Positions 7,177-43,483 of a stretch of DNA of 43,761 nucleotides are shown here, piece after piece (the stretch's first letter is position 1; every line of letters begins with the position of its first letter). A model generated the notes under the pieces. The model was given only the letters and a program-made list of their open reading frames with translations, was not told where the DNA came from and did no database searches. Position numbers and translations under genes: made by a program. This DNA is from a virus, in the IMG/VR virus record IMGVR_UViG_3300020466_000335, positions 1 to 43,761 of that record. One strand, 5' to 3'.

Positions 7177-7195
7177 AGGAGCCTCTTTAGCGGCG

Positions 7196-7222
7196 AAAAG
7201 GCCCAGCCTCGCGGCCGGGCCT
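7196..7222 (-). terminator. weak intrinsic terminator or attenuator between tail tube and tape measure
   Basis: Read on the minus strand, arms at 7213-7222 and 7199-7208 form a 10-bp GC-rich stem with one mismatch and a 4-base loop, followed by four T residues. A second short GC hairpin (6-bp arms, 7241-7256) lies just upstream. Both are in the 88-base gap after the tail tube gene. They may step down expression of the tape measure relative to the abundant tube protein. Confidence 0.5.
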
Positions 7223-7264
7223 ATTCAGTGGAGATGTCGTGGGGCCGGACGGCCCCGAGGTGGA

Positions 7265-8026
7265 TCAGGAAGCGGGCTCGGCCATATCTACCCGGAAGTA
7301 CTTGGAAATTTCCGAGCCAACAATGGAGCTGTCAGAGAGCACCGAACCTTCGAGGGGGAGCTCTGCGTAGTCATCGCCGATGAGCTCCAGGCCAGTGGTG
7401 GGCGTGAACTTGCCCTTGTGGATCCTCACCACCACCTCCGCACCGGATTTGGCCTCGTTCAGACCCTCAAAAACCAGCTCATACTCATCACCGGAGCTCG
7501 TCATGGCTTCCACCACGTCGCCCTTTTTCTTGGTGTAATCGACACCGACCTCGTCAGAATCAGACGCCGCGCCCCCCTCCAATATCCGAATGCCGGAGCG
7601 GGTGACTTCGTAGTCCGTGTCCGCGACCAGCGCGCTGGGCGAACCATCGGGATCCAGTACAACCGCAATGGCCTGGGTACGGTCCGGAATGTCATTGAAC
7701 GGAATCAGGCCGCCGACGTAGGCAGTGTGTCGCTCATCCGTTACGGCTCCCGCGGCGATCGCACGCACGCTGGCGCGCAACGCGATACCCAGGTTCTGCG
7801 GACGCAGCTCCAGCATGGTCAGGTTCATGCCGACCGTGCTGATCCTGTCCACCACGTTAGCCTCGCCGCCGCCGGCGTTCTCGTAGTCGGGCTGGCTGAT
7901 GCTGTTGGTCTCAACGTTGAAGGAAAGGCCGCTGCAGTTGCCAATGGGCAACAGCGGCGCCGCAGCACCCTTCACTCGCAGATTGATGGTGCCCTTGCCG
8001 ATAAATGCATAGGTTTTCTGTGCCAT
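7265..8026 (-). CDS. major tail tube protein (lambda gpV position)
   Basis: The 253-residue protein begins MAQKTYAFIGKGTINLRV. It is Gly/Val/Thr-rich and beta-rich, as expected of a tail tube subunit. It sits between the tail terminator-like gene (2 bases upstream) and the tape measure gene, the exact gpV position in lambda-type tails. The length is close to lambda gpV (246 residues). No Ig-like C-terminal domain is obvious. No pair of frameshifted tail assembly chaperone genes (lambda G/GT) fits in the 88 bases after it, which is unusual for a long non-contractile tail. Confidence 0.75.
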   Translation of the reverse strand: MAQKTYAFIGKGTINLRVKGAAAPLLPIGNCSGLSFNVETNSISQPDYENAGGGEANVVDRISTVGMNLTMLELRPQNLGIALRASVRAIAAGAVTDERHTAYVGGLIPFNDIPDRTQAIAVVLDPDGSPSALVADTDYEVTRSGIRILEGGAASDSDEVGVDYTKKKGDVVEAMTSSGDEYELVFEGLNEAKSGAEVVVRIHKGKFTPTTGLELIGDDYAELPLEGSVLSDSSIVGSEISKYFRVDMAEPAS

Positions 8027-8028
8027 GT

Positions 8029-8478
8029 TCAGTCCCCTTGGTACTGTTCGATGTAGGAAATTGCTGCAGGCAATGCTGCAAGTGCATAGTTGGAGTCGGG
8101 TTCCGGGTTATACTGCGCGGGCTGTATATCCAGGGCCCCGACCAGCGGCGACTGCCACCGTTGCTCCATCAGCTTCAGTGCAGCGCGCAGATCCCGCACC
8201 GCGGCCTGCAGCCGATCTGATTTGTCCACCTTGTCCACCACAAATATGATGAACGCCCCGGCGACCCTCGCTTGATCCGGGTGCGGACTTTGTGTCGATT
8301 CGGTATTTGGCTGGATCACGTAAAAGGGGCATTGTTGATCATCACTATCAACCGCGTGGGCCAAAAACCCCCTGATGACATTCTTTCCCGCATCGGTGAA
8401 GTACCCGTCGGCGACCGTAATCCCCTTCAAAGCAGCCTCGAGCTGCTTCGCCGCCTGTATGCTCTCGGCTTCTGCCAT
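8029..8478 (-). CDS. tail terminator/completion-like protein (gpU position)
   Basis: The 149-residue protein has an alpha/beta pattern: an N-terminal helix (ESIQAAKQLEAALKGI), a central strand FIIFVVDKVDK and a helical DLRAALKLMEQRW. This fits the small proteins that cap the tail tube and join it to the head, such as lambda gpU or Mu gp37-type proteins. It is one base away from the gpZ-like gene and two bases from the tube gene. Assignment rests mainly on gene order and size. Confidence 0.55.
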   Translation of the reverse strand: MAEAESIQAAKQLEAALKGITVADGYFTDAGKNVIRGFLAHAVDSDDQQCPFYVIQPNTESTQSPHPDQARVAGAFIIFVVDKVDKSDRLQAAVRDLRAALKLMEQRWQSPLVGALDIQPAQYNPEPDSNYALAALPAAISYIEQYQGD

Positions 8479-8479
8479 G

Positions 8480-9091
8480 TCATGCCCGCCTTCTAAATTC
8501 TTTCTTGAAGCGCTTTACAGCGATATCCATCGCTTTCGGTGCGATTCTGAGTCGCACACCGCGCCAGGCCTCATCCACGGATGAGCCATAGACTGCCGCG
8601 AGCTTTGCATTGGCGCCTCGACCCTTTCGCACCAGCATGATGTAAGCCCCGGAATTCTTGCCCCAAATGAAAAACGCGTTGGGCCAGGCCTTCTTTTCGC
8701 CTCCGCGTTTTGGCCCCCAAGCCGTGGACCCTGCGGCCTTGCGGCCCTTAGGAATCCGGCGATAGGGATCGCCTTTGACTTTCGACAATGGCGACTTCGT
8801 CGGTGCAGTCTTCTGGGCTGCGCCGAAGCGTGGCGCAAGCACGGACCGACGCTGCGCAGTGATCTTCGTTAGCAGATCTCCGCGACTTGACCGCTTGGTG
8901 ATTGACATTTGCTTATGCACATAAGCCTTTTCGAGGTTTAGCTCCTTGAAGATGGACGCCCGGCCTTCTCTGAGTGCGAACTCCGCACCCGCCTGCAGTG
9001 CCAGGTCAGCAGCTTGGTTTGCGGCTTCCGGGGCCCTCTTAAGCGCCTGCGCGAAAACATCCAGGTCCCCAAGGTTGAAGCTAGCGGCCAC
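8480..9091 (-). CDS. minor tail protein Z-like (head-tail connector)
   Basis: The 203-residue basic protein begins MAASFNLGDLDVFAQALKRAPEA and resembles prophage minor tail protein Z or HK97 gp10-type connector proteins. It has an N-terminal helix, a Lys/Arg-rich middle, then NAFFIWGKNSGAYIMLVRKG and a basic C-terminal helix. Lambda gpZ is needed for a properly joined head and tail. The length matches lambda gpZ (192 residues). It overlaps the end of the upstream connector gene by 11 bases, showing tight packing in the late operon. Confidence 0.75.
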   Translation of the reverse strand: MAASFNLGDLDVFAQALKRAPEAANQAADLALQAGAEFALREGRASIFKELNLEKAYVHKQMSITKRSSRGDLLTKITAQRRSVLAPRFGAAQKTAPTKSPLSKVKGDPYRRIPKGRKAAGSTAWGPKRGGEKKAWPNAFFIWGKNSGAYIMLVRKGRGANAKLAAVYGSSVDEAWRGVRLRIAPKAMDIAVKRFKKEFRRRA

Positions 9092-9432: not shown

Positions 9433-10428
9433 TTACGGCAGGGCGTTCTCGTGCAGCCTGATGATCGCGCCAGGCCGGGTGCAGAGGTGGATGGGATTGG
9501 ACTGGGCCTCCAGTTCGATGCCCTTGCCGTGGTCCATCAGCTCGCTGCTGGAGTAGAACGGCAGCCCGATCGTGTTGACCGCGTCCATGTAGTTGGCCGG
9601 CGCGTAGCGCGTGATGAACAGCTCATCGGCGGACATCGGAACCGCAAAGGCCTCCGTGGTGGGCACGAATGGCGTACCGTTCACGGCGCCCCGATAGCGC
9701 TCGAAGATGATGCCACCGAAGTCCAGCTCTTCCCGCGCGTCATCCCGCAGGCGCTGGCTTTGCTGGTATTTGTATGCCTCCGTCACCAGCGGGTGGGTGA
9801 TCAGCTTGCGCCAGAAACTGGAGCCACACAGGGCTCGAACGCCGGAAAACATGATGTCCCCCAGGGCGACCTCGATTGCCTCGAGTACATCCAGACACTT
9901 GAGCTGTACGTTCGTCGTGCTGGTGTCCAGAACGAAGGCAACCGCCGTCTGAGTGATGCCGAAAGCCGTGTACAAGTTCAGCAACTCCGTGGCACCGTCG
10001 GCATCCAGGATCTGGCCGCGAATTGCGCCCATGCGCTGGTATTCGTGCGTGGCGTCCAGCTTGCGCGCCATGGTCAGGGTGCGCGCATCCACCAGGTCCT
10101 GCAGGGCCTGGAGCGTGTCCTCCGAACCGAACGCCCTGATGTTCTGCGCTTCATCCGCCATAATCTGCGCGGTGGTCGGCAGGTGCACGGCGCTGAACGT
10201 ATGCCCGGTGCGCTTGTCGGGCAGAACCGGGGTTCCCGGCGCGCCGCGCTCTTTGGCCGGCACCAGGCCCAGCTGCTTACCGGACTTCTCTACCACCACC
10301 GTGGTGGTAGTGATGCCTTCTTCCTGGAACAGGCCCAGCTGGCCCAGGCGCCGCGGCAAGTATTCCGCTTCGTTGATGGACGCTGTCAGCCGGGCAGTGG
10401 TGAAGATGTCACTGTCGAAAGGGTTCAT
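9433..10428 (-). CDS. major capsid protein (lambda gpE family)
   Basis: The 331-residue protein begins MNPFDSDIFTTARLTASIN and is recognisable as the gpE type of HK97-fold coat protein, with internal signatures such as LPTTAQIMADEAQNIRAFG and PMSADELFITRYAPANYMDA. Lambda gpE is 341 residues. It would build the icosahedral shell together with the gpD-like decoration protein encoded upstream. A purine-rich ribosome site (AGAGGAAAG) precedes the ATG. The 108 bases between it and the decoration gene hold no evident gene. Confidence 0.93.
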   Translation of the reverse strand: MNPFDSDIFTTARLTASINEAEYLPRRLGQLGLFQEEGITTTTVVVEKSGKQLGLVPAKERGAPGTPVLPDKRTGHTFSAVHLPTTAQIMADEAQNIRAFGSEDTLQALQDLVDARTLTMARKLDATHEYQRMGAIRGQILDADGATELLNLYTAFGITQTAVAFVLDTSTTNVQLKCLDVLEAIEVALGDIMFSGVRALCGSSFWRKLITHPLVTEAYKYQQSQRLRDDAREELDFGGIIFERYRGAVNGTPFVPTTEAFAVPMSADELFITRYAPANYMDAVNTIGLPFYSSSELMDHGKGIELEAQSNPIHLCTRPGAIIRLHENALP

Positions 10429-10945: not shown

Positions 10946-12082
10946 CTACTGCGCGCGGTTATTGCGCCGGCCATAGATCGCTTTGGTATCTATGCCGGTA
11001 TTCTGCCCGCCTTCGGGCGAATGCTGAGAATGGATGCCGGGCGCGGCGGCGGCGGCGGTCAATACGAAGTCAGCGCCCTTGTCCGCATCCCAATCCTCGG
11101 TGACGAGCTTTTCCAAGGCACCGTAATCCCCGGTGGTCTTGCAGGCATTCATCAGAGCCAGCACCCGGTCCCGCTCGGCTTTAACCTTGCCAGGCGCGTC
11201 CACGCCCGCCTGAATATCCTCAATCAGGCGCGGGCACGCCGCCTGCAGTTCCTCCAGCGTCATCGACGCCAGTTCCTGGGCTTCGAGTTCCTGTGGTTGG
11301 GTAAACATCCGGGCCTGAAGTTGCTCCTGGACAGCCTCCAGGTCGCCCTCGACGGCGTCTTCCTCCAGCTCCAGCGCCGCGGCCAGCACGCCAACAGCCG
11401 TGAGCTGCTCGGCTGACGAGGGATGAAGCCTGGCTTGGGCTTCCTCGCCCATCTTCGCCAGCGCCCCGCCCAACTCAACCAGACAGGCTGTGGCCGCGGC
11501 CTTGGTCTCCATCATGGAATCCGCCAGGCCCAGATCCAACCACTGCTGGGCGGACAGTATGGTTCCCTGGCCGATGTCGCCGCGGATCAGCCCCTCCAGC
11601 TCCTCACGTCGATCTTCCCCGATCCGGGCCAGGTAAGTGTCCAGGATGCCATCACCGATGGTGTCCAGATCTTTGGCCAGATCCCTGAATTCATCCGCAT
11701 TGCCCACCGCCGCCGTCCAGGGATAATGCAGAAGACCGAAAGAGCCCAGCCCCATGTTGACTTCGTCTGCCGAAGCTGCGATGACGGACGCGATGCTGGA
11801 TGCCTGGCCCAGTACGTTCACTACCACGCGAGCCGGATGCGCACGCAGGAAGTTGGCGATGGTCAGGCCGTCGCTGACAGATCCCCCGGGGCTGTTCAGG
11901 TCAATGTGGATTTCCTGCAGGTCCCCGAGGGCATTCATCGCGTTCATAAACGCATCGCTGGCCACCCCGCCGTCATCCCACCAGCTGCCGCCGCCGATGA
12001 TGCCGTCAATCGTTACTTGCGCCACATTCGCCTGGCTTCCCTGATCGTGTTTCCGCGCTTTGATGTCAAACCACTTTTTCAT
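10946..12082 (-). CDS. head maturation protease fused to scaffold (ClpP/S49-like, lambda gpC type)
   Basis: The first 200 or so residues are a ClpP/S49-type serine protease domain: IDLNSPGGSVSDGL forms the oxyanion loop, GQASSIAS carries the catalytic Ser, and GLLHYP is the likely His region. The remaining 170 residues are acidic, helical and Gln-rich, like the scaffold part of lambda gpC, whose 3' half also encodes the scaffold Nu3 in frame. An internal ATG at MFTQPQELE could serve as a separate scaffold start, but its ribosome site is weak. The start ATG overlaps the portal stop by 4 bases. The protein would shape the procapsid and then digest the scaffold. Confidence 0.9.
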   Translation of the reverse strand: MKKWFDIKARKHDQGSQANVAQVTIDGIIGGGSWWDDGGVASDAFMNAMNALGDLQEIHIDLNSPGGSVSDGLTIANFLRAHPARVVVNVLGQASSIASVIAASADEVNMGLGSFGLLHYPWTAAVGNADEFRDLAKDLDTIGDGILDTYLARIGEDRREELEGLIRGDIGQGTILSAQQWLDLGLADSMMETKAAATACLVELGGALAKMGEEAQARLHPSSAEQLTAVGVLAAALELEEDAVEGDLEAVQEQLQARMFTQPQELEAQELASMTLEELQAACPRLIEDIQAGVDAPGKVKAERDRVLALMNACKTTGDYGALEKLVTEDWDADKGADFVLTAAAAAPGIHSQHSPEGGQNTGIDTKAIYGRRNNRAQ

Positions 12083-18705: not shown

Positions 18706-19860
18706 TTAAAAGTCCCCGGAATCATAAGTCAGCATCAGCTCCAGCGATGCCTTGTCCTTAGCGTAATACTGATCGTTGGCGCCAATCGCAGGATAAACGA
18801 CCGGATGCGGCTGCGGAGCAAATGCCGCAGGCGGGTAGCCGTATGAATATGAAATCAACCCGCCGAGATATGTAAAGATCGCCGCTATGGTGTCCACGTT
18901 TTCTGATGCTGTTTCGGACACGGCCTGCCACTCGCCGCAGACAACCGGCACGGTCGCGCTTGCCCAGGACGAGATATAGCCAAGCGTGTCATCTATATCT
19001 CCCGGAAAGCGGTCCGACGTTGGGTAAAAATGCGGCTGGCAAAAATCCAGCAGGTCCTGCGTGTTCGCGTAACCGAATGCGCCACTTGGAAATGGCAGAA
19101 CCCCGCACGTAACCAGCGCGTCAGGGTCAACAGCCTTGATGGCGTCACGCTCCTGCGTTATCCAGTCGCGCACCGTGTCGTCGTCCACCGAAGCCCCCTC
19201 CGCAACGCACTGGTTGTAGTAGACTCCTTGGCTGCCGTAGTTACCAGCGAATATGTCTGCAGTGGGGTCGGCGCTTATGTACGGCTCGTTAATGAGGTCA
19301 TAGGCCATTACCGTTGTCGCGTTCCCCGAGTCGACAACAGCCTGCACCAGTTGTGTCCAGAAATACTCCTGCACGTCCCAGCGATCGGCGTATGGCAAAG
19401 CCTCGTACCACGCAGGAGCATCATCCGGCACCCCGACATTGCAGCCGCACAGAATCATGTACAGGCCCGCCTGTCTGGCTTGGTCGACCTGATAGATCAG
19501 GTTAGCCATTTGCGTGGTGCGCACGGAAAGGCTGTTTTCGTCCGCCCCGGTGATGTACTGAAACATCTGCAATTGCACGCGGTGGACATTTGCTCCCATG
19601 CGCTTATTACCACGCAACTCGCTGCGGATTGCGGACTTCACGGCGGCGGCCTGCGTCTCGTAGTAATCATCCCAGTGCTGGATGACCGCTGAGCCGTGGT
19701 CGAACTCCAGATTGTGGAACCCGTAGGGGTTAATCACTCCGGTTTCGGCAGTGACCAGCGAAGATCCGATCGTTGCGACACGCGGCAAGGTATGCCGCAG
19801 CTTGATAGCGGACCCGCCAATCGCGACGCGGCTTGTGCCGACCTTGACGCCTTTAGACAT
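18706..19860 (-). CDS. GH5-like glycoside hydrolase, probable virion depolymerase
   Basis: The 384-residue protein has the hallmarks of a clan GH-A (beta/alpha)8 glycosidase: LINEPYIS with the acid/base Glu at residue 192, PHFYP near residue 277, and VPVVCGEW with the nucleophile Glu at residue 310. GH5 enzymes act on beta-1,4-glucans, mannans and related polymers. The first 40 residues (Gly/Ser/Val-rich, MSKGVKVGTSRVAIGGSAI) lack a signal peptide and may attach the enzyme to the tail. It is surrounded by fibre-like genes. It probably cleaves a host surface polysaccharide during adsorption, but the substrate cannot be read from sequence. Confidence 0.8.
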   Translation of the reverse strand: MSKGVKVGTSRVAIGGSAIKLRHTLPRVATIGSSLVTAETGVINPYGFHNLEFDHGSAVIQHWDDYYETQAAAVKSAIRSELRGNKRMGANVHRVQLQMFQYITGADENSLSVRTTQMANLIYQVDQARQAGLYMILCGCNVGVPDDAPAWYEALPYADRWDVQEYFWTQLVQAVVDSGNATTVMAYDLINEPYISADPTADIFAGNYGSQGVYYNQCVAEGASVDDDTVRDWITQERDAIKAVDPDALVTCGVLPFPSGAFGYANTQDLLDFCQPHFYPTSDRFPGDIDDTLGYISSWASATVPVVCGEWQAVSETASENVDTIAAIFTYLGGLISYSYGYPPAAFAPQPHPVVYPAIGANDQYYAKDKASLELMLTYDSGDF

Positions 19861-22312: not shown

Positions 22313-22972
22313 TTATTGAAGGCCCACCTTATAGCCGATTTTGAAAAGCGCCATGCGATCCACCCTGTCGAGATCGTCGCAAACTTTGGCCCAGTGTTGA
22401 CGATAGGTATTGCTCCACATTTGTCGCGTGATCGTACGGTTGCTCGAGCTGAACTTGGCGTCCCACGGAATCTCTCCACCCATCTGCCCCATGCGCCATG
22501 CGACCATTTCCCGGATTACCGCGCGAGTCTCCGCCCTCACCCCGGCGCAATACAGCGCCTCATACTGCCTGGCGTATCGATGCAGGAAGCTCGCCCAACA
22601 CTCGCTCCGCTTGTGGCAGCGGTCCCGATAACAAAAGTGCACCCACAGCTGTTCCATCTCCGTCAGTTCGGAAATGCACCGATGGACGAAAGCCGTCAGC
22701 TGCTGGCTGTCCGCGAGCAGCGGCCGCGATCGCCCGCTATTGCGGGTTTCCACGACGGACACGCGCGTCGCGGCAGTGCGCGACGGAACCTTCTTGCCAT
22801 CGCCGCGGTCTACTGGCAGGCGTCGCGCCGGTAAGGCCCCCTGCCCATCGGTGCGCAAGTGGCGACTGCCAGTGAATGCTCCGACACCCCCGCCACGCTT
22901 GTCCACGTGGCCGAATGCCGCAAGCAGGGCCGCCCTGCCAATCCGCACCGCCTCATCCCCTTCTGCCCCCAT
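22313..22972 (-). CDS. candidate late-gene antiterminator (Q position), unrecognised family
   Basis: The 219-residue basic protein has a variable N-terminal part and a conserved-looking C-terminal half with LWVHFCYRDRCHKRSECW and WSNTYRQHWAKVCDDLDRVD. Several Cys and His residues (HFCYRDRCHKRSEC) could hold a metal. It is the last gene of the early operon, just before the late promoter and terminator, as Q is in lambda. I do not see clear identity with a named Q family, so the role is inferred from position. The ATG overlaps the nuclease gene by 20 bases. Confidence 0.5.
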   Translation of the reverse strand: MGAEGDEAVRIGRAALLAAFGHVDKRGGGVGAFTGSRHLRTDGQGALPARRLPVDRGDGKKVPSRTAATRVSVVETRNSGRSRPLLADSQQLTAFVHRCISELTEMEQLWVHFCYRDRCHKRSECWASFLHRYARQYEALYCAGVRAETRAVIREMVAWRMGQMGGEIPWDAKFSSSNRTITRQMWSNTYRQHWAKVCDDLDRVDRMALFKIGYKVGLQ

Positions 22973-23594
22973 AATAGCGCCCCCGCCGTACCTTGATCAG
23001 CCGCAACAGTTCATCTCTGCAACGGCGCACGCACTGCGCGCCGTGCTCGTATAACGCAACGACCCCAGGGTCGGCGCCTCGCATTTCCGCCTGGTCAGCC
23101 CCTCCACTCAGGACCTGCGCCCGCTGAGACCACGAGACCTGCAGGTCATCCAGGTCCTGCAACTCCAGAGCCTGCCGATCCAAGTAGGAACGCACAAACA
23201 TCACTGCCAGGCCCGCGTGGATCAGGTGCGCATCACACCGGTATACAAACCAGCCCAGCCTCGCAGCGTGGTGATACTTTTTCAGGTCCTTGGTAAACCC
23301 CAGGCCGCGATTGTGGCCGCCGCTCACCATGGCCCCACCCTCAACCTCTACCGCCAGACCAACATCAGGCCAGGCGAAATCGAAGCGCCAATCTGACAAG
23401 CCAGCCTGCTGCAGGCGAAATCGGACGCCATCACCCTTGCCTACGTGTTCTGCGGCAAAACGGTACTGCACCATGAAGCCGATGTCAGCCGCGCTCAGTT
23501 GGCGAGCCAGCTCATCCTCCAGCTCTGACCTGTTGGTCCGTCGCGTGCGGCGGTTTTCCTGGTACTTCGGCAGCTTGCCGGGCCGCCTTTTCAC
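22953..23594 (-). CDS. PD-(D/E)xK-type endonuclease
   Basis: With the GTG start at 23594 the protein is 213 residues long. The nuclease core reads WRFDFAWPD (Asp72) then AVEVEGG (Glu83, Glu85), followed by a Lys-rich helix TKDLKKY and the strand GWFVYRCD, as in Vsr/DUF559-type nucleases. The basic N-terminus (KRRPGKLPKYQENRRTRRTN) may bind DNA. The GTG overlaps the stop of a 22-codon reading frame (GTGA), supporting this start; longer forms would overlap the Lar-like gene. Possible roles are recombination, resolution of branched DNA at packaging or host DNA attack. Confidence 0.7.
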   Translation of the reverse strand: MKRRPGKLPKYQENRRTRRTNRSELEDELARQLSAADIGFMVQYRFAAEHVGKGDGVRFRLQQAGLSDWRFDFAWPDVGLAVEVEGGAMVSGGHNRGLGFTKDLKKYHHAARLGWFVYRCDAHLIHAGLAVMFVRSYLDRQALELQDLDDLQVSWSQRAQVLSGGADQAEMRGADPGVVALYEHGAQCVRRCRDELLRLIKVRRGRYYGGRRG

Positions 23595-23659
23595 GCAGCA
23601 CCCACAAGATCGAAATCGTCGGGCGTCTCGAAACGCACCTTGACGGCAGATGCTCCCAC
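23591..23659 (-). CDS. possible 22-residue leader peptide gene
   Basis: A GTG start at 23659 follows a GGGAGG ribosome site at normal spacing, which is itself within the end of the Lar-like gene. It encodes MGASAVKVRFETPDDFDLVG plus two Ala and stops in a GTGA overlap with the nuclease start. The acidic, ordinary composition and two-sided coupling suggest real translation. It may couple nuclease expression to the upstream gene. No relatives are known to me. Confidence 0.4.
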   Translation of the reverse strand: MGASAVKVRFETPDDFDLVGAA

Positions 23660-23662
23660 GGC

Positions 23663-23953
23663 CTACGCCTCCCGCCTGTTCCAGGCATCTACCGGCGCCC
23701 CAGCGAAGCACCGCGAGCACTCGTATGCATCGTGCTCGCCGTCATCAAGGCACCACGTTCCGTCAAAAAGCTCCGTGCATCCGCAGAACGGGCAAGGCAA
23801 CGGCTTGCGATCTTTACTGGGAGCCGCCCCGCTAAGCTCCTCCAGCCGGTCTGCAGCGTCGTGCAGAAGCCTATGCGGCCACTGAATGCGGGCATGAGGG
23901 TGGCCGACGCAGGCGTCACGCAATCGCTTTATGATCTCCTCGGTTGTCATCAA
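23663..23953 (-). CDS. Lar-like zinc-ribbon protein
   Basis: The 96-residue protein has an N-terminal helix (MTTEEIIKRLRDA) with HDAADRLEELSG, then a zinc ribbon (LPCPFCGC, later YECSRCFAG) ending in PVDAWNRREA. This plan is that of Lar-like restriction alleviation proteins and related phage zinc ribbons, in which an AxxAWNxR motif follows the second Cys pair. Lar reduces type I restriction of phage DNA. Whether this member does so is not shown. A second protein of this kind is encoded at 34063-34377. Confidence 0.65.
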   Translation of the reverse strand: MMTTEEIIKRLRDACVGHPHARIQWPHRLLHDAADRLEELSGAAPSKDRKPLPCPFCGCTELFDGTWCLDDGEHDAYECSRCFAGAPVDAWNRREA

Positions 23954-25311: not shown

Positions 25312-28300
25312 TTACTCGGCCTCCCCCGCCAACGTTCCGCGGAACCGCTCTTCAGCGGTCTTCCATCCCAGCTGTTCCAATCGCTCGTCGCTATGCGCAT
25401 CGTGACAGCCATGACAGGTACACTCCCCTTCGTTGCACACCAAGGGGGTCAGGCCATGGGCAACCTTGTCGCCGGCTTCGTCATAGCCAAAATGCCGAAA
25501 TGGTCGCCCACACTCTACGGGTAAGGACACAGACCCATCGGCGAGCAGCGGAGCTTTTAGCGGTGGGTATGTTTTCATCAGCCCCTCCCGGTCCGGCGTC
25601 CTGGTCCAGTGGTCGAAGTACTCGACACCGAAATATCGGACTATCGCCGGGTAGTCGGGATGCGCATGCCCCTGGAACGCAACGCGGTTTTGCTCATCGC
25701 CCTTACCCGGTATCGGATAGAGCTCACCCGACCGCGCGTCCACCACGCGCAGCGCACACTCACCACCGGGCGGCTGGACTTTCTCAACCTGTGGCGTCGG
25801 TACGCCGTACAGGTCTTGATACCTCGCAACCGGCTGGGCGTCCCAGCAGTGCCACTGCAGATCGCCGCAAGCCATGACCTCGCTCTGGCTGGGATCAAAC
25901 GGGTTGGTAACCACCTCCACCTTTGCGCGCCTGATCTGCTTCTGGCACGGCGGCTCACCCCCGAGCGCCGCATAGGTCGCCCTGCCTGGCGGTACCGCTT
26001 CAAAGCAGCCGTATCCACGTCCATGGGTATACATCCAATCAGCACCGCCACCAGGCAGCGGAGCGGGATAGCCAGCCCTGCCGGCAGCGCGGCCGTCGCG
26101 GTGCATCCTCGGCCAGCCCAAGTCCTGATCGTTGGCGTACGGCGTCAATGCCTCCAGGCTCTTCTCTACATAGTGCGCCGACCCAGGCACATCGGAATTC
26201 GACTCCATGCCACCCACTTGGCTCGCGCGCAGCGCTCCTTCCACTACACCCCCGCGAAAATCCAGGCCAAAGATCAATCCCATGGCCCCAGTGCTGTTCT
26301 TGGCGTAGTAGTTGGTGACCGCAATCTTTCCCGCGTGGATCTCGCCCGTGGCGCGTAGCGCGCGAAACTGAGTACTGCCCTCGCCCTTTCGCGCAGGGTC
26401 CACCCAGTCTTTGAGCAGCGCAGTGGTGATGATGTTGCCGGACCCATGAGCGCCCAGAATGGTGATCACCTCACCCCCGCCGAGGCCTACGCTTTTTAGC
26501 CACCACACGTTCTGCGGCGTGGATCCGTATTCGCCAGGACCATCCCCCTCCCACGCGGAAAAGAGCACTTCGCCGCTGGACAACACCTCAGGGCTGAGCG
26601 CCATCCACTCCCCCGGCGTGATATCGGTGATGTCGGCGAGCTGACGGCCGACCAGACGCGCGCGGTGGATGTGCAGCGCTTTCGAAGGGTAGAAATTGCG
26701 CGGGAACCAGTAGCTGCCGTCAGGATGCCTTCCGGGCGTACTGCGCGGGGCATAGGTCCCCGCTCGATCGCTCGCAAATACAATGCAGTCGTTGCCGCAC
26801 CAGTCGGGCGTGCGGTCCCGGTGGCCGCTGCTGATCCTGTATCGCTGCCCGCTGTCCAGCTCATAAATCCACAGCTCAGCGGTCACGGTGTCAAACTCCC
26901 ACAGATCCGTCATCGGCCCATTTGCCGCCTTGATCGGCCAGCGTGTGGCGCCAGGCGGAGCGGTGCTGACGGCGTAGACCACCCTTTTGCCGTCGGGGCT
27001 GATGCGAGCCTCCTGCGCGGTGCATATGACATCGGATCCCGTGCAGTCGTGGATTACCGTGATGCCGCCGGCCAGGTCATCAAACACCACGTCCGCTTCG
27101 GTCTGGCGCCACATGCGGCCCACGTCATTGACCCGTTGCCAGTTGCTGGCGTCATCGATGGACTTGCTGTAGGGAGTTTCCGGGTCAACAGTAATTCGCG
27201 TGCCGTGCCGCGGCTGACGCGTGTAGGTGATTCCCGCGAGCACCGGGGTGGGCCGGGTGATCTGCAAGGGCGTGTACTGAGTAGCGCTGGCCAGAGTCAG
27301 AGCCGGTATGGTGACCTCGCCGGTGCGTGAGACCTCGACCGTGCCGGATGCAGACCCTATCGACCAAGAAACGCGATCCCCCCTCTTAAGCTTGAAGTTG
27401 GCCGGGTTGCGAATCGTCAGGTCAAAGGTAGCCACCTCCGGCTGGTCCGGAATTCCGCCGCCGATATCTGTGTGCCTCAGATATCGCAGCGGCAAAGTTA
27501 GCCCGCCTTCCGTGTCCCGGACTCCCTTGCTGTTCCAGCTCAGCCCGAGGTTGTAGTGGCCTCTCGGATAGCCCTTGCCGTCGGCGTCCTGCAGGTGATT
27601 CGCAGTCGAGCCAGTGAACACCGGCAGCACCCCCAAGCGTCGGACCTGCGCGTCCGGTCCCGCGTACCGGTCGCGCCATGGGAGGTTTACGCCAGGCTCA
27701 CCCCCCTGAACGTGCCAACCCAGCCCCCACATCGCAAAGCACGCGACCTTGTACTTGTCGCAGTAGCGGAGGAAGTCTAGGTCAAACACACCCAAGTTGT
27801 CGTTCGTGTGCCCCTGGAGCTTGAAATAAACGTGCGACAGCCGGCCCTTGCGCATCTGCTCTTCCAGATCGGCTGCACTGATATCGTAGCCCTGCCAAGC
27901 GCGCTGCACCGCGGGGTCGCGCCAATAGCGCCCCTGCTTGCCGGCAAAGTTGGTATGCGGCACCGTGGCGTCCACCACTGATAGCCAGTTTCGCCAGAAC
28001 CCGTCGGGCATCAGCATCGCCTGCAGGATGCATCCGGTTCCGCCCATAGACGCGCCCACGCACTCCACCCCCGCGCCGAAGTCTATGGACGGCTTCATCA
28101 GCTCCACGGCCTTGTTCAGCGACACCGCCAGGCGATAGCCCGCATGGTTCTTTCCCTGGTTCGGGCCCCACCAGGTGGCATCATCGCCGTCCTGCGTGCT
28201 GCAGTTGGCAATGGTGATGTATCCCGCCTGCGGGTCCTGGTTCGGCTCTGTGCACGCTTTCGGGACGCCCCCGGTTCCGTGTAGCGCCAGCCTCAGCTTT

Positions 28301-28551
28301 AGGGAATTGTCCCGTGGCAGTGGGTTCGGCGCGATGATCAGCAACGGTATGCCATCCTCCGCCTCGGTTTTCGTGGTGTAGGGTTCGCCGCTGAAACTGC
28401 AGCGATACGCATTCCACAACTCTGTGACCGGCTCGGGATCCGAGCAGACCACGTCACGACTACTGCCGGCCTCGGTTTTGCAACCACCCAGCAGCATCAT
28501 CATCACCGCCAGGACGATTAGCACCAGGCCAATGCCGAATGATTTATGCAT
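25312..28551 (-). CDS. giant lipoprotein: alpha/beta-hydrolase, beta-propeller-like region, HZS_alpha-like CxxCH C-terminus
   Basis: The 1079-residue protein starts MHKSFGIGLVLIVLAV and has a lipobox LLGGC (Cys24); Lys at +2 favours the outer membrane. Residues 70-290 form an esterase-like alpha/beta hydrolase with LHGTGG (His91-Gly92), nucleophile Ser168 in GASMGG, and probable Asp251 (HTND) and His280 (GLGWH). Residues 500-750 carry TolB/PD40-like strands (ARISPDGKRVVYA, CIVFASDRAG, SSGEVLFSAWEG). The C-terminus (LLADGSVSLPVECGRPF, then CHGCH at 1046-1050) resembles HZS_alpha-type proteins whose CxxCH can hold haem c. A GTG start at 28662 is possible but would bury the signal peptide. The gene sits in the early operon. 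The role is unknown. Confidence 0.8.
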   Translation of the reverse strand: MHKSFGIGLVLIVLAVMMMLLGGCKTEAGSSRDVVCSDPEPVTELWNAYRCSFSGEPYTTKTEAEDGIPLLIIAPNPLPRDNSLKLRLALHGTGGVPKACTEPNQDPQAGYITIANCSTQDGDDATWWGPNQGKNHAGYRLAVSLNKAVELMKPSIDFGAGVECVGASMGGTGCILQAMLMPDGFWRNWLSVVDATVPHTNFAGKQGRYWRDPAVQRAWQGYDISAADLEEQMRKGRLSHVYFKLQGHTNDNLGVFDLDFLRYCDKYKVACFAMWGLGWHVQGGEPGVNLPWRDRYAGPDAQVRRLGVLPVFTGSTANHLQDADGKGYPRGHYNLGLSWNSKGVRDTEGGLTLPLRYLRHTDIGGGIPDQPEVATFDLTIRNPANFKLKRGDRVSWSIGSASGTVEVSRTGEVTIPALTLASATQYTPLQITRPTPVLAGITYTRQPRHGTRITVDPETPYSKSIDDASNWQRVNDVGRMWRQTEADVVFDDLAGGITVIHDCTGSDVICTAQEARISPDGKRVVYAVSTAPPGATRWPIKAANGPMTDLWEFDTVTAELWIYELDSGQRYRISSGHRDRTPDWCGNDCIVFASDRAGTYAPRSTPGRHPDGSYWFPRNFYPSKALHIHRARLVGRQLADITDITPGEWMALSPEVLSSGEVLFSAWEGDGPGEYGSTPQNVWWLKSVGLGGGEVITILGAHGSGNIITTALLKDWVDPARKGEGSTQFRALRATGEIHAGKIAVTNYYAKNSTGAMGLIFGLDFRGGVVEGALRASQVGGMESNSDVPGSAHYVEKSLEALTPYANDQDLGWPRMHRDGRAAGRAGYPAPLPGGGADWMYTHGRGYGCFEAVPPGRATYAALGGEPPCQKQIRRAKVEVVTNPFDPSQSEVMACGDLQWHCWDAQPVARYQDLYGVPTPQVEKVQPPGGECALRVVDARSGELYPIPGKGDEQNRVAFQGHAHPDYPAIVRYFGVEYFDHWTRTPDREGLMKTYPPLKAPLLADGSVSLPVECGRPFRHFGYDEAGDKVAHGLTPLVCNEGECTCHGCHDAHSDERLEQLGWKTAEERFRGTLAGEAE

Positions 28552-28646: not shown

Positions 28647-28901
28647 TCACCACCGCCACCACAGCAACAATGCCAGCACCAGGTTCAGCACCAGCGAATA
28701 GGTGATCAGGTGGCCATTGAAATACGCCGCCCGCGCCACCCTTGCCCCTTCCGTCCAGATGTTGGTGAATGCATGGCCGGACCAGGGCGCCCGCTTCCAG
28801 CGGTCAATGAAGGGCTGCACCGCCCTGCGCCAGATCTTGTATTCCTGTTTGATCCTGGCCCGCACCCTGGCAAAACCATCCTTTCCCCTCGGCTGATCAC
28901 T
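28647..28901 (-). CDS. small membrane protein with PRGKDG N-terminus
   Basis: With the GTG start at 28901, preceded by AAGGGGG, the protein is 84 residues and begins MSDQPRGKDGFARVRARIKQ. A basic, helical middle (WRRAVQPFIDRWKRAPW) is followed by one C-terminal membrane segment (LITYSLVLNLVLALLLWWRW). The first 17 residues closely match those of the 49-residue protein at 29403-29552, indicating a local duplication. The function is unknown. It lies just upstream of the giant lipoprotein gene. Confidence 0.6.
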   Translation of the reverse strand, partial: SDQPRGKDGFARVRARIKQEYKIWRRAVQPFIDRWKRAPWSGHAFTNIWTEGARVARAAYFNGHLITYSLVLNLVLALLLWWRW

Positions 28902-28924
28902 CACCGCTTCCACCCCCTTGCCGT

Positions 28925-29410
28925 TCAGTCACCAAACTTCACCAGCGGCTGGTCCGCTTTGATGTACAGCGGATGACGTGGCGCGCCAGACTTGGTGACA
29001 CCCAGGCACCACAGCCTGGCATCCGTATCCTCCGCAAGCTGCATGAATTCGCGCACGCGATCAGGCGCCGCGCTGTTCCCCCAGGCACAAACCGCTTCAC
29101 CGTGTTCACGCAGCAGACGCACCAGGTGCGCGTCATTGTCAGGCCCCACCGGATCCGCACACAGCCGCAGCGCCGCCGGATCCGTTGCCCGGTATGCGTA
29201 GAGGTTCGCCACCGTCAGGCCCGCACAGCCCCAGCTTTCCGCAAAGCCACGGCAGCGGCGGATGGTAGGGTCATCCAGTTCAGCGTCAGCGGTGGAAGGG
29301 TTCAGCATGATGAACAGAACAGGGCCGCGCTCAGCGATTAGCGATCGACCAGGCCGCGTCAGCCAGTAGCGATAGAAGCCGCAGTCACTGATCAACGCAC
29401 CACTATTCAT
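28925..29410 (-). CDS. DUF1643 protein
   Basis: The 161-residue protein shows the DUF1643 pattern: CGFYRYWLTR, then LFIMLNPSTADAELDDPTIRRC, GLTVANLYAYRATDP and VCAWGNSA. The length is normal for the family. The fold is probably related to nucleotide- or base-handling enzymes, but no biochemical role is established to my knowledge. Such genes are common in phages and mobile elements. Its ATG overlaps the stop of the small gene upstream. Confidence 0.85.
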   Translation of the reverse strand: MNSGALISDCGFYRYWLTRPGRSLIAERGPVLFIMLNPSTADAELDDPTIRRCRGFAESWGCAGLTVANLYAYRATDPAALRLCADPVGPDNDAHLVRLLREHGEAVCAWGNSAAPDRVREFMQLAEDTDARLWCLGVTKSGAPRHPLYIKADQPLVKFGD

Positions 29411-30020: not shown

Positions 30021-30648
30021 GAGTGCGGACCTCCTCGCCGCTAGATCGCGTGTCGCCAGGGCCGCGCTCTGGCGCGGTCACTAACCGACTCCTGAGTTCG
30101 TGGAGCCTTTTCAGGTCCTCGATGTGCGCAGCGCCAGACTCCAACATCAGGGCCACGCTCTCCAGATGCGCACCGTTAAGCCAGGTGCCCATACCGTTGG
30201 CCTGAACCTCCGCGCGCAGGCCGGTGGCGCAAAGCCGCATAGCATCTGGGCTGCAGTCACCTCCGCCGTTCAGGATTGCTTCTTCAGCCTCATCCGGTGA
30301 CAAGGCCGGCGTCTCGGGATCAGCCTGGGCGGCCGCCCTTTGCATCTCTCGCTTGCCGGTCAGCAGAAACCAAGTGAGCATCAACATGATGCTGGTAAAC
30401 CACCAGGCCATAGCCCAGCATGCCACCACCAGAGCAGCCAGCAGGGTCCGATTGACTCGCACCAACCACAGCATGGTTTTTTCGAACACCAATGACGCAC
30501 TGGACAGCAAGGCAGCCCAGCCGACGGCAATGAACAGCCACAAAAGGCCGCGGCCAATGTTCATCAGTACTTGATCACGCAGGGCATAGCCGACAATGAT
30601 GTTCGCCAGCGCGGCGCCATAAGCTATCGTTGCAGTGTATTTCCACAT
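30010..30648 (-). CDS. multi-span membrane protein with soluble C-terminal domain
   Basis: The 212-residue protein has about three to four N-terminal membrane segments in the first 95 residues (YGAALANIIVGYAL, GLLWLFIAVGWAALLSSASLV, LLAALVVACWAMAWWFTSIM), then a soluble helical part with GTWLNGAHLESVALMLESGA. The start overlaps the stop of the ParB-like gene (TAATG). An effect on the host membrane or on superinfection is possible, but nothing in the sequence proves it. Confidence 0.6.
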   Translation of the reverse strand: MWKYTATIAYGAALANIIVGYALRDQVLMNIGRGLLWLFIAVGWAALLSSASLVFEKTMLWLVRVNRTLLAALVVACWAMAWWFTSIMLMLTWFLLTGKREMQRAAAQADPETPALSPDEAEEAILNGGGDCSPDAMRLCATGLRAEVQANGMGTWLNGAHLESVALMLESGAAHIEDLKRLHELRSRLVTAPERGPGDTRSSGEEVRTRAT

Positions 30649-32180
30649 TACTCCTGTCCCTCATCGTCATCTTCATCGTCCAGATCGCGCTCGCCCCATG
30701 GGATATACGGCGCCTCGACGTCGTCGTAGATCTCCTGCAGGATCGCCGGGCGGTCTATGCCACAGGCCAGAATCGCCGCACGAAGGTCGGGCACCTTTAG
30801 CTTGTCCCAGGGCTTCCCCTCGGGCTGCTCGAGCTGGTGCAGCTCGACGAGGTGCAAAAGCTCAGCCTTGCGAAACAGTTCGAGGAAGGGCGCCTCGATC
30901 GTCCAGACCGCTTCGATGTTGCGGCCCCAAAGCTCGCGGCAGATTACTTGCGTCTCGCGCCACGGCAGGGAGTGTGCGACCTCGATTGCCGCGCAGAGCT
31001 TCGGGAAGTCGGTCGATTTTGCGGCAAGCAGGTCCTCGATACTGCCGATTCCGGCCTGCTTACTCGATTTGTAGTCCATGGAGATCGCGGGCTTGCGCCA
31101 CCACCCGGCGGGCCCTGGCCTTTCCATAGCGTGCCAGGCGAGCAGCTCGTCGGTGATATCGATATCGCCCTGCATCTTCTCGATAATCCGACTCACCAGG
31201 TAGTCGTGCAGGTAGTCGCGACACTTCTCGCGCAGCGACTGCTGGCGCTGTTCTCCTTTCTGCTCGACCTCTTTCTCAGAGGGCGCACCGGAGTTCGGCG
31301 CCTTCGCCTGCTTTGGCTTCTCGCCGCCAGGCAGTAGCCCAGCCGCCTTTGCCTCCCCATTCTTCTCCTGGAAGTCCTTCGGGCTCATGCAAACGGCTTC
31401 ACCACCTACGGTGACGAGGTGCTCGCAGCCCTTACACGCAGTTTTGTAGTTGAAGTGGACTGCCTTGTCGCCGTACCAGCTGTGCGTTTTCGTAAGGCTC
31501 ACGCCGCCAGCCTCGTACAGACCCTTGACCGCAGAAACTCGCGCCTCATGCACGGTGGCTTTGCCCCGCCAGTCGATGTCCTCCTTGAGCTCGCTGATAG
31601 CTGCCTTCATGGCGGCGGGGTACTTCTTGAGCGCACGCAGCTTGGACGCCGCGGCGGGCTCGAGCTGATCAGCGTCGATAAGGTTCTGCACGGCCTTGGG
31701 TAAATCGCACAGCTGTATCGCTTGCTCGATTTCCTTCGGCTTCATGGGCGGCAGGCCTGCGCGCGCCAGGTGCGCCGACAGATCGTTCACCGAGGCGAAC
31801 TTTTCGCGCCGCAGCGACGCCAGCATGCGCGCCACCTCCATTTTCGAGAGCTTCTCGCGGATATTGTTCACGGCGAGCTGGTCTACCCGGATATCCTCCT
31901 CACTGATATCGCCGTCCATGAGCAGAACCGGCACCTCGTCCTGCTCGGCAATCTGCGCCGCACGGTAGCGACGCTCGCCGTCGTAGATGACGAGCTCCCC
32001 GTTGCTGCTCTCGCGCACGATGATGGGCACCAGGACCCCGCGATCGACGATGCTCTGCGCGAGCTGCTTCAAGGATTTCTTGTCGAAGTTTTTGCGCGGC
32101 TGGTCAGGGTCGGGCGTCAGGGTGGACAGCGGGACGTGCGTTATCTGACCTGCGACCAGGGCGTTGTTGTTCTGAGTCAT
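30648..32180 (-). CDS. ParB-like protein, no ParA partner
   Basis: The 510-residue protein opens with a ParB/Srx-like domain: LTPDPDQPRKNF near residue 21, then the phosphate-binding GERRYRAAQ at 68-76 and LAVNNIREK near 102. A helix-turn-helix-type stretch follows (VNDLSAHLARAGLPPMKPKEIEQAI). A Cys cluster (ACKGCEHLV, AVCM) near residue 245, a charged linker and a helical C-terminal domain complete it. It is longer than typical chromosomal ParB (about 300) and no ParA gene is present. It may regulate transcription, act on DNA, or serve partition with a host ParA. Confidence 0.75.
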   Translation of the reverse strand: MTQNNNALVAGQITHVPLSTLTPDPDQPRKNFDKKSLKQLAQSIVDRGVLVPIIVRESSNGELVIYDGERRYRAAQIAEQDEVPVLLMDGDISEEDIRVDQLAVNNIREKLSKMEVARMLASLRREKFASVNDLSAHLARAGLPPMKPKEIEQAIQLCDLPKAVQNLIDADQLEPAAASKLRALKKYPAAMKAAISELKEDIDWRGKATVHEARVSAVKGLYEAGGVSLTKTHSWYGDKAVHFNYKTACKGCEHLVTVGGEAVCMSPKDFQEKNGEAKAAGLLPGGEKPKQAKAPNSGAPSEKEVEQKGEQRQQSLREKCRDYLHDYLVSRIIEKMQGDIDITDELLAWHAMERPGPAGWWRKPAISMDYKSSKQAGIGSIEDLLAAKSTDFPKLCAAIEVAHSLPWRETQVICRELWGRNIEAVWTIEAPFLELFRKAELLHLVELHQLEQPEGKPWDKLKVPDLRAAILACGIDRPAILQEIYDDVEAPYIPWGERDLDDEDDDEGQE

Positions 32181-41990: not shown

Positions 41991-42245
41991 ATGACCGTGG
42001 CACACCAGATGAAAGGCCAGCTGATCCTTGGCTCCAAGTTCCTGAAGAAGCACTTCCAGGCCGGATCGCGCATGACGAAGCGAGAGCTGGCCCAAAAGAT
42101 ACTGGACGGGACGATACCTGGCTGGGTCGAAGGCGAAACGGAAAACGGCACCCCCTGGGTCGATGAAGAATCCTGGCTGAACTCCTGGGGTCCGCCCGCG
42201 CCGATCACTGGACAGAAAACCAGTGTTGCGGACATGTGGTCCTAG
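41991..42245 (+). CDS. probable excisionase
   Basis: The 84-residue protein begins MTVAHQMKGQLILGSKFLKK with a winged-helix-like text (MTKRELAQKILDGTIPGWVEGE, then PWVDEESWLNSW). It lies directly before the integrase in the same direction, the usual xis position, and has the usual xis size. A second ATG at 42009 is possible. It would bend DNA at the attachment site and direct excision. Confidence 0.65.
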   Translation: MTVAHQMKGQLILGSKFLKKHFQAGSRMTKRELAQKILDGTIPGWVEGETENGTPWVDEESWLNSWGPPAPITGQKTSVADMWS

Positions 42246-42286
42246 TGTATGGTTTGCGAGCGCACACAACGATGGGAACCGTAACC

Positions 42287-43483
42287 ATGCCCAGGCCTAA
42301 AAAGCCCAGGCTTGTGGATGGTATTGTCCTGCACGATCGCCTATTCCAGGACTGCAGGAAAAGACCAGGCCACTGGCGCTGGCGCCGACCCGATGGAACC
42401 TTTAAAACCTTTCGGGCAGACACCCCCGAGGAAGCCAACAGCCTTGTGGAAGCTGCTCTAAACTTCGACCCGCCGCCCACCGGCGCAACTATTCGAAAAG
42501 ACTCGCTGGAAGCACTGGTGCCACTGTTCATCGAGCACCGGCAAAAACTAGACCCCAGCCTCAAACAAAAGACCAGCTGGAAGAACAGGCGCAATGCCCT
42601 CAAGGCCTTTGCCAGGTACTTCTCCGGCGTTGGCGTGGGCAAGATCTCCAGGCCCATGATTGTCACCTGGTGGGAAGGGCTGACATTCCACCAGCAGAAA
42701 CAACGGCACACCGAATGCCGCCGCCTCTTCAACTGGCTGATGGGCGAAGGCCTATGCCCGCAGCTGGAATATAATCCGTTCACCACCGCCGATGACCGGC
42801 CCCGACTCATGCTCTCAGGACAGGCGCCCAAGGCCAGAATGCGAATGGACCGGGCGGACTTCTGGGCCATCTATCACCAGGCCGGCGAACTGGGGCTGGA
42901 AGGCCTGCAAATTGCAATGGGGATTAGCTTGACTACGTTCATGCGTGAGTCGGACATCCTGGCATTACGCCTCGACGAGGATCTGGAGGGGGACCTGCTG
43001 AAGAAGGTGATAAGCAAATCAGCACAGCAAAAAGGGTCTGCACGCGCCGCCAGGTTAAAATGGGATGTCGCAAACCATAGGCTGCTGAAGCAGCTTCTAG
43101 CCCGAGCCAGGGTGCTGTCCATAAAGCACTTCCGTTGCCCCTACGTGATATCCCATCGCCCGCTAAAGAAGCGCCGGGGTGCAGCGAAGGACCACCCCTA
43201 CCAAGTGACACGATGGCGCTTGGCTGAAATGTTCGCCGAAGCCAGAGACGCCACCAGACGGTGGGACATAATTCAGGAAGGGCGCACACCGCCCACCTTC
43301 CACGAAGTTAGATCACTGGCTGACAGGCTGGCCGTGGACGCGGGGTATGACATCAAGACAATCCAGGGCGTAATGGCGCACGAGAGTGACGTCACCACCA
43401 AAGACTACCTTGATGGACATCAGCTGCCGTTTGACCAGGTGGATATTGTGTTTACTGAAGAAATGATTGGGGGATCCTTTTAA
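42287..43483 (+). CDS. tyrosine integrase
   Basis: The 398-residue protein begins MPRPKKPRLVDGIVLHDRLF, with an N-terminal arm-type part (GHWRWRRPDGTFKTFRADTPEEA), a core-binding domain (residues 70-165) and a catalytic domain with Arg220 (TTFMRESDIL), a Lys around 244 (ISKS), His339-x-x-Arg342 (FHEVRSL), His365 (MAHES) and nucleophile Tyr374 (TKDYLDGH). A longer start at 42272 is possible. It would insert the phage into the host chromosome. It overlaps the next gene by one base. Its att site lies outside or is not recognisable here. Confidence 0.93.
   Translation: MPRPKKPRLVDGIVLHDRLFQDCRKRPGHWRWRRPDGTFKTFRADTPEEANSLVEAALNFDPPPTGATIRKDSLEALVPLFIEHRQKLDPSLKQKTSWKNRRNALKAFARYFSGVGVGKISRPMIVTWWEGLTFHQQKQRHTECRRLFNWLMGEGLCPQLEYNPFTTADDRPRLMLSGQAPKARMRMDRADFWAIYHQAGELGLEGLQIAMGISLTTFMRESDILALRLDEDLEGDLLKKVISKSAQQKGSARAARLKWDVANHRLLKQLLARARVLSIKHFRCPYVISHRPLKKRRGAAKDHPYQVTRWRLAEMFAEARDATRRWDIIQEGRTPPTFHEVRSLADRLAVDAGYDIKTIQGVMAHESDVTTKDYLDGHQLPFDQVDIVFTEEMIGGSF

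Follow-up and report, generated by a model that had tools for sequence, protein, structure and literature searches.

Why does a temperate phage carry a single 3.2-kb gene for an exported protein of 1079 amino acids (aa)? The question is raised by P0001, an open frame on the minus strand (28551..25312) of IMG/VR virus record IMGVR_UViG_3300020466_000335, whose 43,761 nucleotides were analysed over their whole length and are called the window below. We find that P0001, rather than a giant gene standing alone, represents a trimmed branch, found in phages, of a chromosomal family, and that it is distinct from true hydrazine synthase (HZS). The identity of the gene and its membership of a phage-specific branch are, in our assessment, very well supported. 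The best explanation as a whole, to which we assign a probability of about 0.5, is that P0001 is a hydrolase/HZS_alpha-like cargo protein, kept in this branch by temperate phages, which changes the surface of the host.

The fusion lipoprotein and its domains

The P0001 frame is intact up to its stop codon, and the remaining five frames of the stretch contain 13–36 stops. An alternative upstream GTG start would give 1116 aa; the signal peptide agrees with the ATG at 28551. The first-pass annotation, made from the letters of the window without naming a strand, had read a signal peptide with a lipobox at Cys24. On the minus strand the N-terminus is MHKSFGIGLVLIVLAVMMMLLGGC (28480..28551), with the lipobox LLGGC24 and Lys at +2; inspected by eye, the translation shows a signal of the lipoprotein type here, and the structural model places a helix at residues 3–23. 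A codon-level check confirms Cys24 together with Ser168, Asp251, His280, Cys1046, Cys1049 and His1050. With the signal so read, P0001 combines what marks a bacterial lipoprotein, a signal peptide with a lipobox Cys, and what marks a c-type cytochrome, a CxxCH motif with an export signal.

Alone as a query, P0001 gave no significant match in sequence searches of Pfam, including its alpha/beta-hydrolase families, PHROGs, NCBIfam and the PDB, nor in phage or plasmid records, viral contigs (0 of 11 stretches) or genome contigs (0 of 3); its relatives surfaced only through a whole-genome search and with alignments as queries. The AlphaFold model of P0001 has a mean predicted local distance difference test score (pLDDT) of 75 and a predicted template modelling score (pTM) of 0.62; the structure alignment comprised 18 rows, with L071, two contig-edge or X-bearing rows and others left out. 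In this model the N-terminal half is predicted to adopt an esterase-type alpha/beta-hydrolase fold, followed by a propeller resembling TolB and, at the C-terminus, by a counterpart of the HZS alpha haem-alphaI domain, a division that the first-pass annotation had proposed from motifs. The best Foldseek match is HZS alpha (5C2V, E 4.1e-14), followed mostly by esterases and related hydrolases, the EstA/S-formylglutathione hydrolase type first, and a comparison with viral structure models returned weak matches only.

The hydrolase-like half (residues ~34–437, 27241..28452) has stand-alone homologues of ~430–450 aa and Foldseek matches to EstA and S-formylglutathione hydrolase (E 8e-6 to 4e-5). 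Its fold resembles that of Esterase D and EstA-type esterases (2UZ0, 4FOL), although the identity is just 13–14%. Ser168 (28048..28050), the predicted nucleophile, sits in the model at the elbow between strand 162–167 and helix 169–180, as expected of a serine-esterase fold, and the alignment supplies a conserved predicted acid, Asp251 (27799..27801), and predicted base, His280 (27712..27714), the latter in a low-confidence stretch of the model (pLDDT <50 at 280–283). This Ser-Asp-His triad is invariant in the six sequences of hydrolase alignment A3, five of which were selected with the Ser already seen, and is complete in 8 of 14 hydrolase halves. The A3 profile found no sequence relative in the PDB; a separate model of the hydrolase half made without an alignment reached a pLDDT of 39.7 and was not used. 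Fold and residues together make P0001 probably a working hydrolase.

The propeller (residues ~438–915, 25807..27240) aligns in VIA-align with TolB at Z ~24–25 and with HZS alpha at Z 29.8, the latter from a superposition of model residues 387–1079 on 5C2V_D 38–607 (root-mean-square deviation 3.4, 447 residues) that barely tests the N-terminal half. The part resembling the HZS_alpha middle domain (residues ~930–1079, 25315..25764) was placed by alignment to chromosomal members over the PF18582 cut-off, and the 5C2V alignment extends to residue 1079. Searched against PDB sequences at E 0.01, the family profile A6 has HZS alpha as its sole match (E 2.6e-11); the match spans the propeller and the first and second haem regions in order, the propeller part alone being weak. 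The CHGCH haem-attachment motif at 1046–1050 (25402..25416), with His1053 three residues on, corresponds to a first CxxCH conserved in all 20 aligned relatives, P0001 included; a CxxCH arose by chance in 60 of 5000 shuffles of the P0001 protein. The HZS_alpha-like context that had been claimed for this motif is borne out by the model, and in the Pfam search only by the relatives: P0001 itself has no PF18582 match, while five of seven genomic relatives (the two others are hydrolase-only) and one of two viral relatives pass, L076 with 32.8 bits over the cut-off of 26.6 and L075 under it with 22.1.

The comparison with HZS alpha of Kuenenia stuttgartiensis (PDB 5C2V; PF18582; NF052339) also sets a limit to the likeness. 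The order of propeller and haem-alphaI-type domain is the same, but HZS alpha has an alphaII bis-His haem domain that P0001 is without, and P0001 has instead an added esterase-type half. Relatives of P0001 score 28–51 bits against NF052339, whose cut-off is 800. According to the accessible part of PMC12607021, the proximal ligand of the alphaI haem is Tyr591, four residues past the CxxCH His, which itself binds zinc; the sequence CHGCHDAHS of P0001 has Ser at His+4, in place of that Tyr, and His at +3. Because both the Tyr ligand and the second haem domain are missing, P0001 as a hydrazine synthase was rejected. Haem binding by P0001 remains somewhat the better expectation; the host genome encodes CcmE, part of the haem-attachment system.

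A chromosomal family and its phage branch

The window corresponds to C24:5346-49106 of a 5.2-Mb Halioglobus/Haliea-type host genome (G000). A tRNA-Pro (ggg) gene lies at ~C24:49310-49386 (L033:311-387), and 46 bp of its 3' end are repeated exactly at C24:237-282 and C24:49309-49354, bounding a complete-looking prophage of ~49 kb, of which the P0001 gene makes up 6.6%. Outside the tRNA-Pro lie merR-, pheT-, pheS-, rplT-, infC- and thrS-like genes, named by eye. PHROGs, searched with 10 products, gave an integrase, a replication initiator, a ParB-like protein, a Q-like antiterminator, a large terminase and a tape measure. P0001 stands inside the attachment repeats, away from the tail genes, in a same-strand block between the replication genes and Q, which in lambdoid phages is a usual site of accessory genes. 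The setting in a phage early operon, as first proposed, thus stands as regards the prophage and the same-strand block upstream of Q; "early" describes position only. Codon usage of P0001 is phage-like, not host-like: it is nearer to that of 21 other phage genes than to that of 8 host genes (distance 0.50 vs 1.06), and its GC content at third codon positions is 0.75, against 0.84–0.92 in the host genes.

Homologues of P0001 are found on bacterial chromosomes. The same genome has four further homologous genes, on contigs C3, C42, C4 and C38 (E 2.5e-32 or better), and one weak match; counting this genome each time, a homologue occurs in 15 of 57 genomes of relatives, 22 of 140 of the family (49 match rows at E 1e-10) and 5 of 390 of the order. 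They come as fusions, as lone hydrolases of ~430 aa or more, or as lone HZS_alpha-like proteins, and at two loci (G014:C55 and G012:C166) the hydrolase gene lies directly upstream of the HZS_alpha-like gene. As far as alignments can tell, the relatives show that P0001 joins members of two Halieaceae families, one of serine-hydrolase-like proteins of 430 aa and one of HZS_alpha-like propeller/haem proteins. One chromosomal fusion (G010:C55, 1301 aa) is 42% identical to P0001 over residues 13–1075, nearly the full length, with the same CHGCH and the same triad. Chromosomal Halioglobus/Haliea fusions, however, have a second CxxCH domain, their chains running on for ~130–230 more residues past the first CxxCH, and a QGCAVNTED block, and P0001 lacks both, its C-terminus being 34 residues from the start of its sole CxxCH. 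Four chromosomal fusions (L026, L009, L010 and L109) have lost the nucleophile Ser yet remain open frames, and are apparent pseudo-enzymes.

Scans of IMG/VR identified three viral contigs with homologues: 3300020466_000336, IMGVR_UViG_3300025018_000311 (L075) and 3300048597_000667 (L076). Two further viral-contig scans recovered only L076, and the products of L075 and of the prophage on C4 had no match in 50,697 phage records. The presence of the gene in other viral contigs argues against a recent assembly join. 3300020466_000336 corresponds to a second prophage of the same genome, at ~92.8–134 kb of C4 and podophage-like by eye: the 1552-aa product and its neighbours read the same by eye, and the gene closely follows a Q-like gene, as judged by eye. 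Like its chromosomal counterparts, this member carries two CxxCH motifs, and Asp stands in place of its nucleophile Ser.

L075 and L076, on the other hand, share with P0001 the trimmed end (29–33 vs 34 residues from the CxxCH start), the single CxxCH and the intact triad, and in all three the QGCAVNTED block is replaced. The second CxxCH is present in 17 of 17 rows outside this trio and in none of the three within it. In the tree of the HZS half (20 rows) the three group with 100/100 support; neither this tree nor that of the hydrolase half (14 rows) includes rows cut by contig ends, distant members or some of the other orthologues. Sixteen residues are common to the three and absent from the other 17 rows, and a control trio, the one tried, had 0. 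Pairwise identity within the trio is 40–44% in the HZS half and 30–36% in the hydrolase half, and core-invariant columns survive in all three at 86 of 178 positions in the phage span and 33 of 74 in the hydrolase. Every member nevertheless keeps the complete triad, as well as both Cys and the His of the CxxCH. Because so few invariant columns survive, retention of all six functional residues is mildly telling (~1 in 100 as a rough product, if columns were equal and independent). Since the second haem domain is lost and triad and CxxCH are kept throughout, the window, L075 and L076 look like a long-lived phage branch rather than a fresh capture, as judged from sequence comparison.

The phages carrying this branch differ. 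L076 shares replication, terminase, portal-like (by eye), 141-aa and nuclease-like genes with the window at 25–53% identity, whereas in L075 and L074 no window frame other than the P0001 homologue matched at E 1e-5 (one non-overlapping frame set; stretches of 22.2/43.1 kb for L074, 17.3/36.6 kb for L075 and 23.6/40.2 kb for L076). This suggests that the branch moved between, or persisted in, different phages. In L076 the single fused gene of the window is split into a hydrolase, a 125-aa and an HZS-like gene, the 125-aa frame lying at 11224-11601 between the other two; in L075 the copy is fused, as in the window, and follows a lysozyme-like gene (by eye).

A candidate role at the host surface and its rivals

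Distant versions of the gene in other viruses suggest that P0001 probably serves a genuine function on the surface of infected cells. In the mechanism we propose, P0001 would be expressed either in the lysogen or from the early operon. Sec would export it, and after lipidation it would go to the outer membrane, because +2 is Lys and not Asp, carrying one haem c loaded by the host Ccm system. The serine-hydrolase half may then cleave an ester, acyl or acetyl, of material at the host surface; the propeller/haem half would hold the substrate or a partner and may carry out redox reactions with its single haem. Infected cells or lysogens would as a result have an altered surface, perhaps with fewer receptors for competing phages. 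All of this is inferred, from the activity of the enzyme and the attachment of haem to the timing and the role at the surface, and the surface-modification role itself is put forward tentatively, at somewhat less than even odds.

A lipoprotein-anchored serine hydrolase would fit acyl removal from surface material, and what the homologue neighbours have in common is chemistry at the surface or outside the cell, as seen in examples and not counted. One locus (G068) has polysaccharide-synthesis, Wzy_C and pyruvyl-transferase genes; acyltransferase-3 and AMP-ligase genes are near the homologues at G009:C137 and G002:C183, respectively, a sulfotransferase and a GNAT gene are near the C38 hydrolase, and others have sulfatases or a sulfotransferase nearby. 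Esterases of the SGNH type occur in Klebsiella prophages, where, in the portion of PMC13123978 available, they are virion receptor-binding proteins acting on capsule; P0001, by contrast, has an export signal and lies off the tail genes.

Several observations count against this explanation. Promoter and terminator scans are at shuffle level (6 vs 5.5 and 17 vs 16.3). The phage rows sit on long branches, for which treekit warns that joins may be false, and in the hydrolase-half tree the window, L075 and L076 do not group. Of 203 columns invariant in 15 chromosomal rows, 28 are gapped in all three phage members, but up to 25 of these represent the shared missing C-terminal end. In the L075 copy the reading frame breaks shortly after the start, at nine consecutive T (~10000-10080), which is either a sequencing error or real. 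At least one triad residue is missing from 6 of the 14 hydrolase halves, namely four chromosomal fusions, one stand-alone gene and the member in the second prophage, so that the fold can persist without catalysis. Finally, chromosomal homologues occupy no single fixed operon and the surface role draws on neighbours that vary: further homologues adjoin DUF3604 or MlaD genes, or P450-like genes (by eye), and a supposed sulfotransferase (L031) and polysaccharide deacetylase (L053), both named by eye, had no Pfam match.

The alternative closest in kind is that P0001 is metabolic cargo, an auxiliary metabolic gene that boosts host use of an ester- or sulfate-bearing substrate and has no part in phage exclusion. 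The chromosomal family is indeed expanded in the genus (four matches in the host genome exceed the PF18582 cut-off, one of them in the second prophage), and sulfatase, DUF3604 and 3-keto-disaccharide-hydrolase-family genes are among the example neighbours. We nonetheless hold this to be unlikely: divergence of the phage branch, together with its loss of the second haem domain, means that P0001 does not simply duplicate the host protein, and no known pathway accommodates it. Small phage lipoproteins that exclude superinfection exist, T5 Llp for example, and with this precedent P0001 might be a catalytically idle binding or scaffold lipoprotein, a plug or decoy blocking an outer-membrane receptor or a Tol/Pal-like partner. 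The resemblance of the propeller to TolB would suit such a function, as would the four chromosomal fusions that lack triad residues and remain open frames; that triad and CxxCH are whole in all three branch members, at a mutual identity of only 30–44%, makes it improbable.

Two further readings fare worse. Most homologues found are chromosomal, one in genome G015 lies just past a tRNA-Pro (ggg) like that of the phage attachment site, and the HZS_alpha match in Pfam is lost in P0001 and the frame broken in L075, all of which would be in keeping with an accidental passenger, acquired from a host and now decaying to no advantage. An intact 3.2-kb frame, derived features common to three phage members, phage-fitting codon usage and conserved active-site residues render such decay very improbable. 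A tail esterase that removes the receptor as the phage adsorbs has parallels in prophage receptor-binding proteins (PMC13123978, in the part available), and the C4 prophage member adjoins a 968-aa gene and small genes ahead of a lysozyme-like gene (by eye). A virion component is still hardly credible, for the window copy and both L076 products start with export-type signals (by eye) and the window gene, like those of L076 (by eye), lies upstream of Q and away from the tail genes.

P0001 as candidate surface-changing cargo would belong to the known class of temperate-phage cargo genes; what is unusual is the pair of domains and the evidence of long residence in phages. The literature searched, mostly at title level, yielded no viral report of the hydrolase/HZS_alpha-like family, and a search of the same collection for virus-encoded c-type cytochromes returned no paper; the accessible parts of PMC8115048 and PMC9083009 name no viral hzs gene. 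If the explanation is right, a trimmed relative of an HZS subunit has been joined to an esterase and kept across distinct phage types, which offers a testable new route of surface conversion and a probable phage-encoded c-type cytochrome. A viral "hzsA" annotation then need not imply anammox chemistry, and the one-CxxCH versions would help the study of the HZS alphaI-type domain outside anammox bacteria. Taken further, and as a rather doubtful generalisation, marine gammaproteobacterial temperate phages may own a distinct family in which a secreted serine hydrolase and a single-haem HZS_alpha-type redox domain with altered haem ligation edit the host envelope, a form of lysogenic-conversion chemistry for which we found no counterpart.

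Neighbouring genes

Upstream of P0001 lie a gene for an 88-aa small protein (28647..28913, minus strand), which has no match in Pfam, PHROGs or PADLOC, and a DUF1643 gene (28925..29410, minus strand; PF07799, E 1.5e-40). The latter had been named in the first-pass annotation and is confirmed by Pfam; the neighbour called ASCH-like there matches PHROG 874, of unknown function, and no Pfam family. No defence family was matched among the nine proteins scanned with PADLOC. On the other side, a nuclease-like gene, VSR-like by eye (22953..23720, minus strand; PHROG 503, of unknown function, no Pfam match), has a homologue in L076 (53% identity over 116 aa) that likewise precedes the L076 hydrolase gene. 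The Q-like antiterminator (22313..22972, minus strand; PHROG 304, E 4e-11) marks the end of the early region, and the prophage integrase is encoded at 42236..43483 on the plus strand (PHROG 1, E 9e-22).

In G015:C12 (L037) an HZS_alpha-like lipoprotein gene (5585-8656) lies 0.5 kb past a tRNA-Pro (ggg) gene (5007-5083) in the same pheS-pheT setting as the attachment site of this phage, the names being given by eye. Capture of P0001 at the attachment site was considered on account of this arrangement; since a long distance separates P0001 from either end of the prophage, we take the arrangement as no more than a coincidence. In the interval from Q to the terminase, the window also encodes a glycosyl hydrolase family 5 (cellulase) protein (18706-19860, minus strand; PF00150, E 2.3e-11), possibly a glycan-cleaving virion enzyme, and a ParB-like protein of 510 aa is encoded at 30648-32180 on the minus strand of this integrating prophage.

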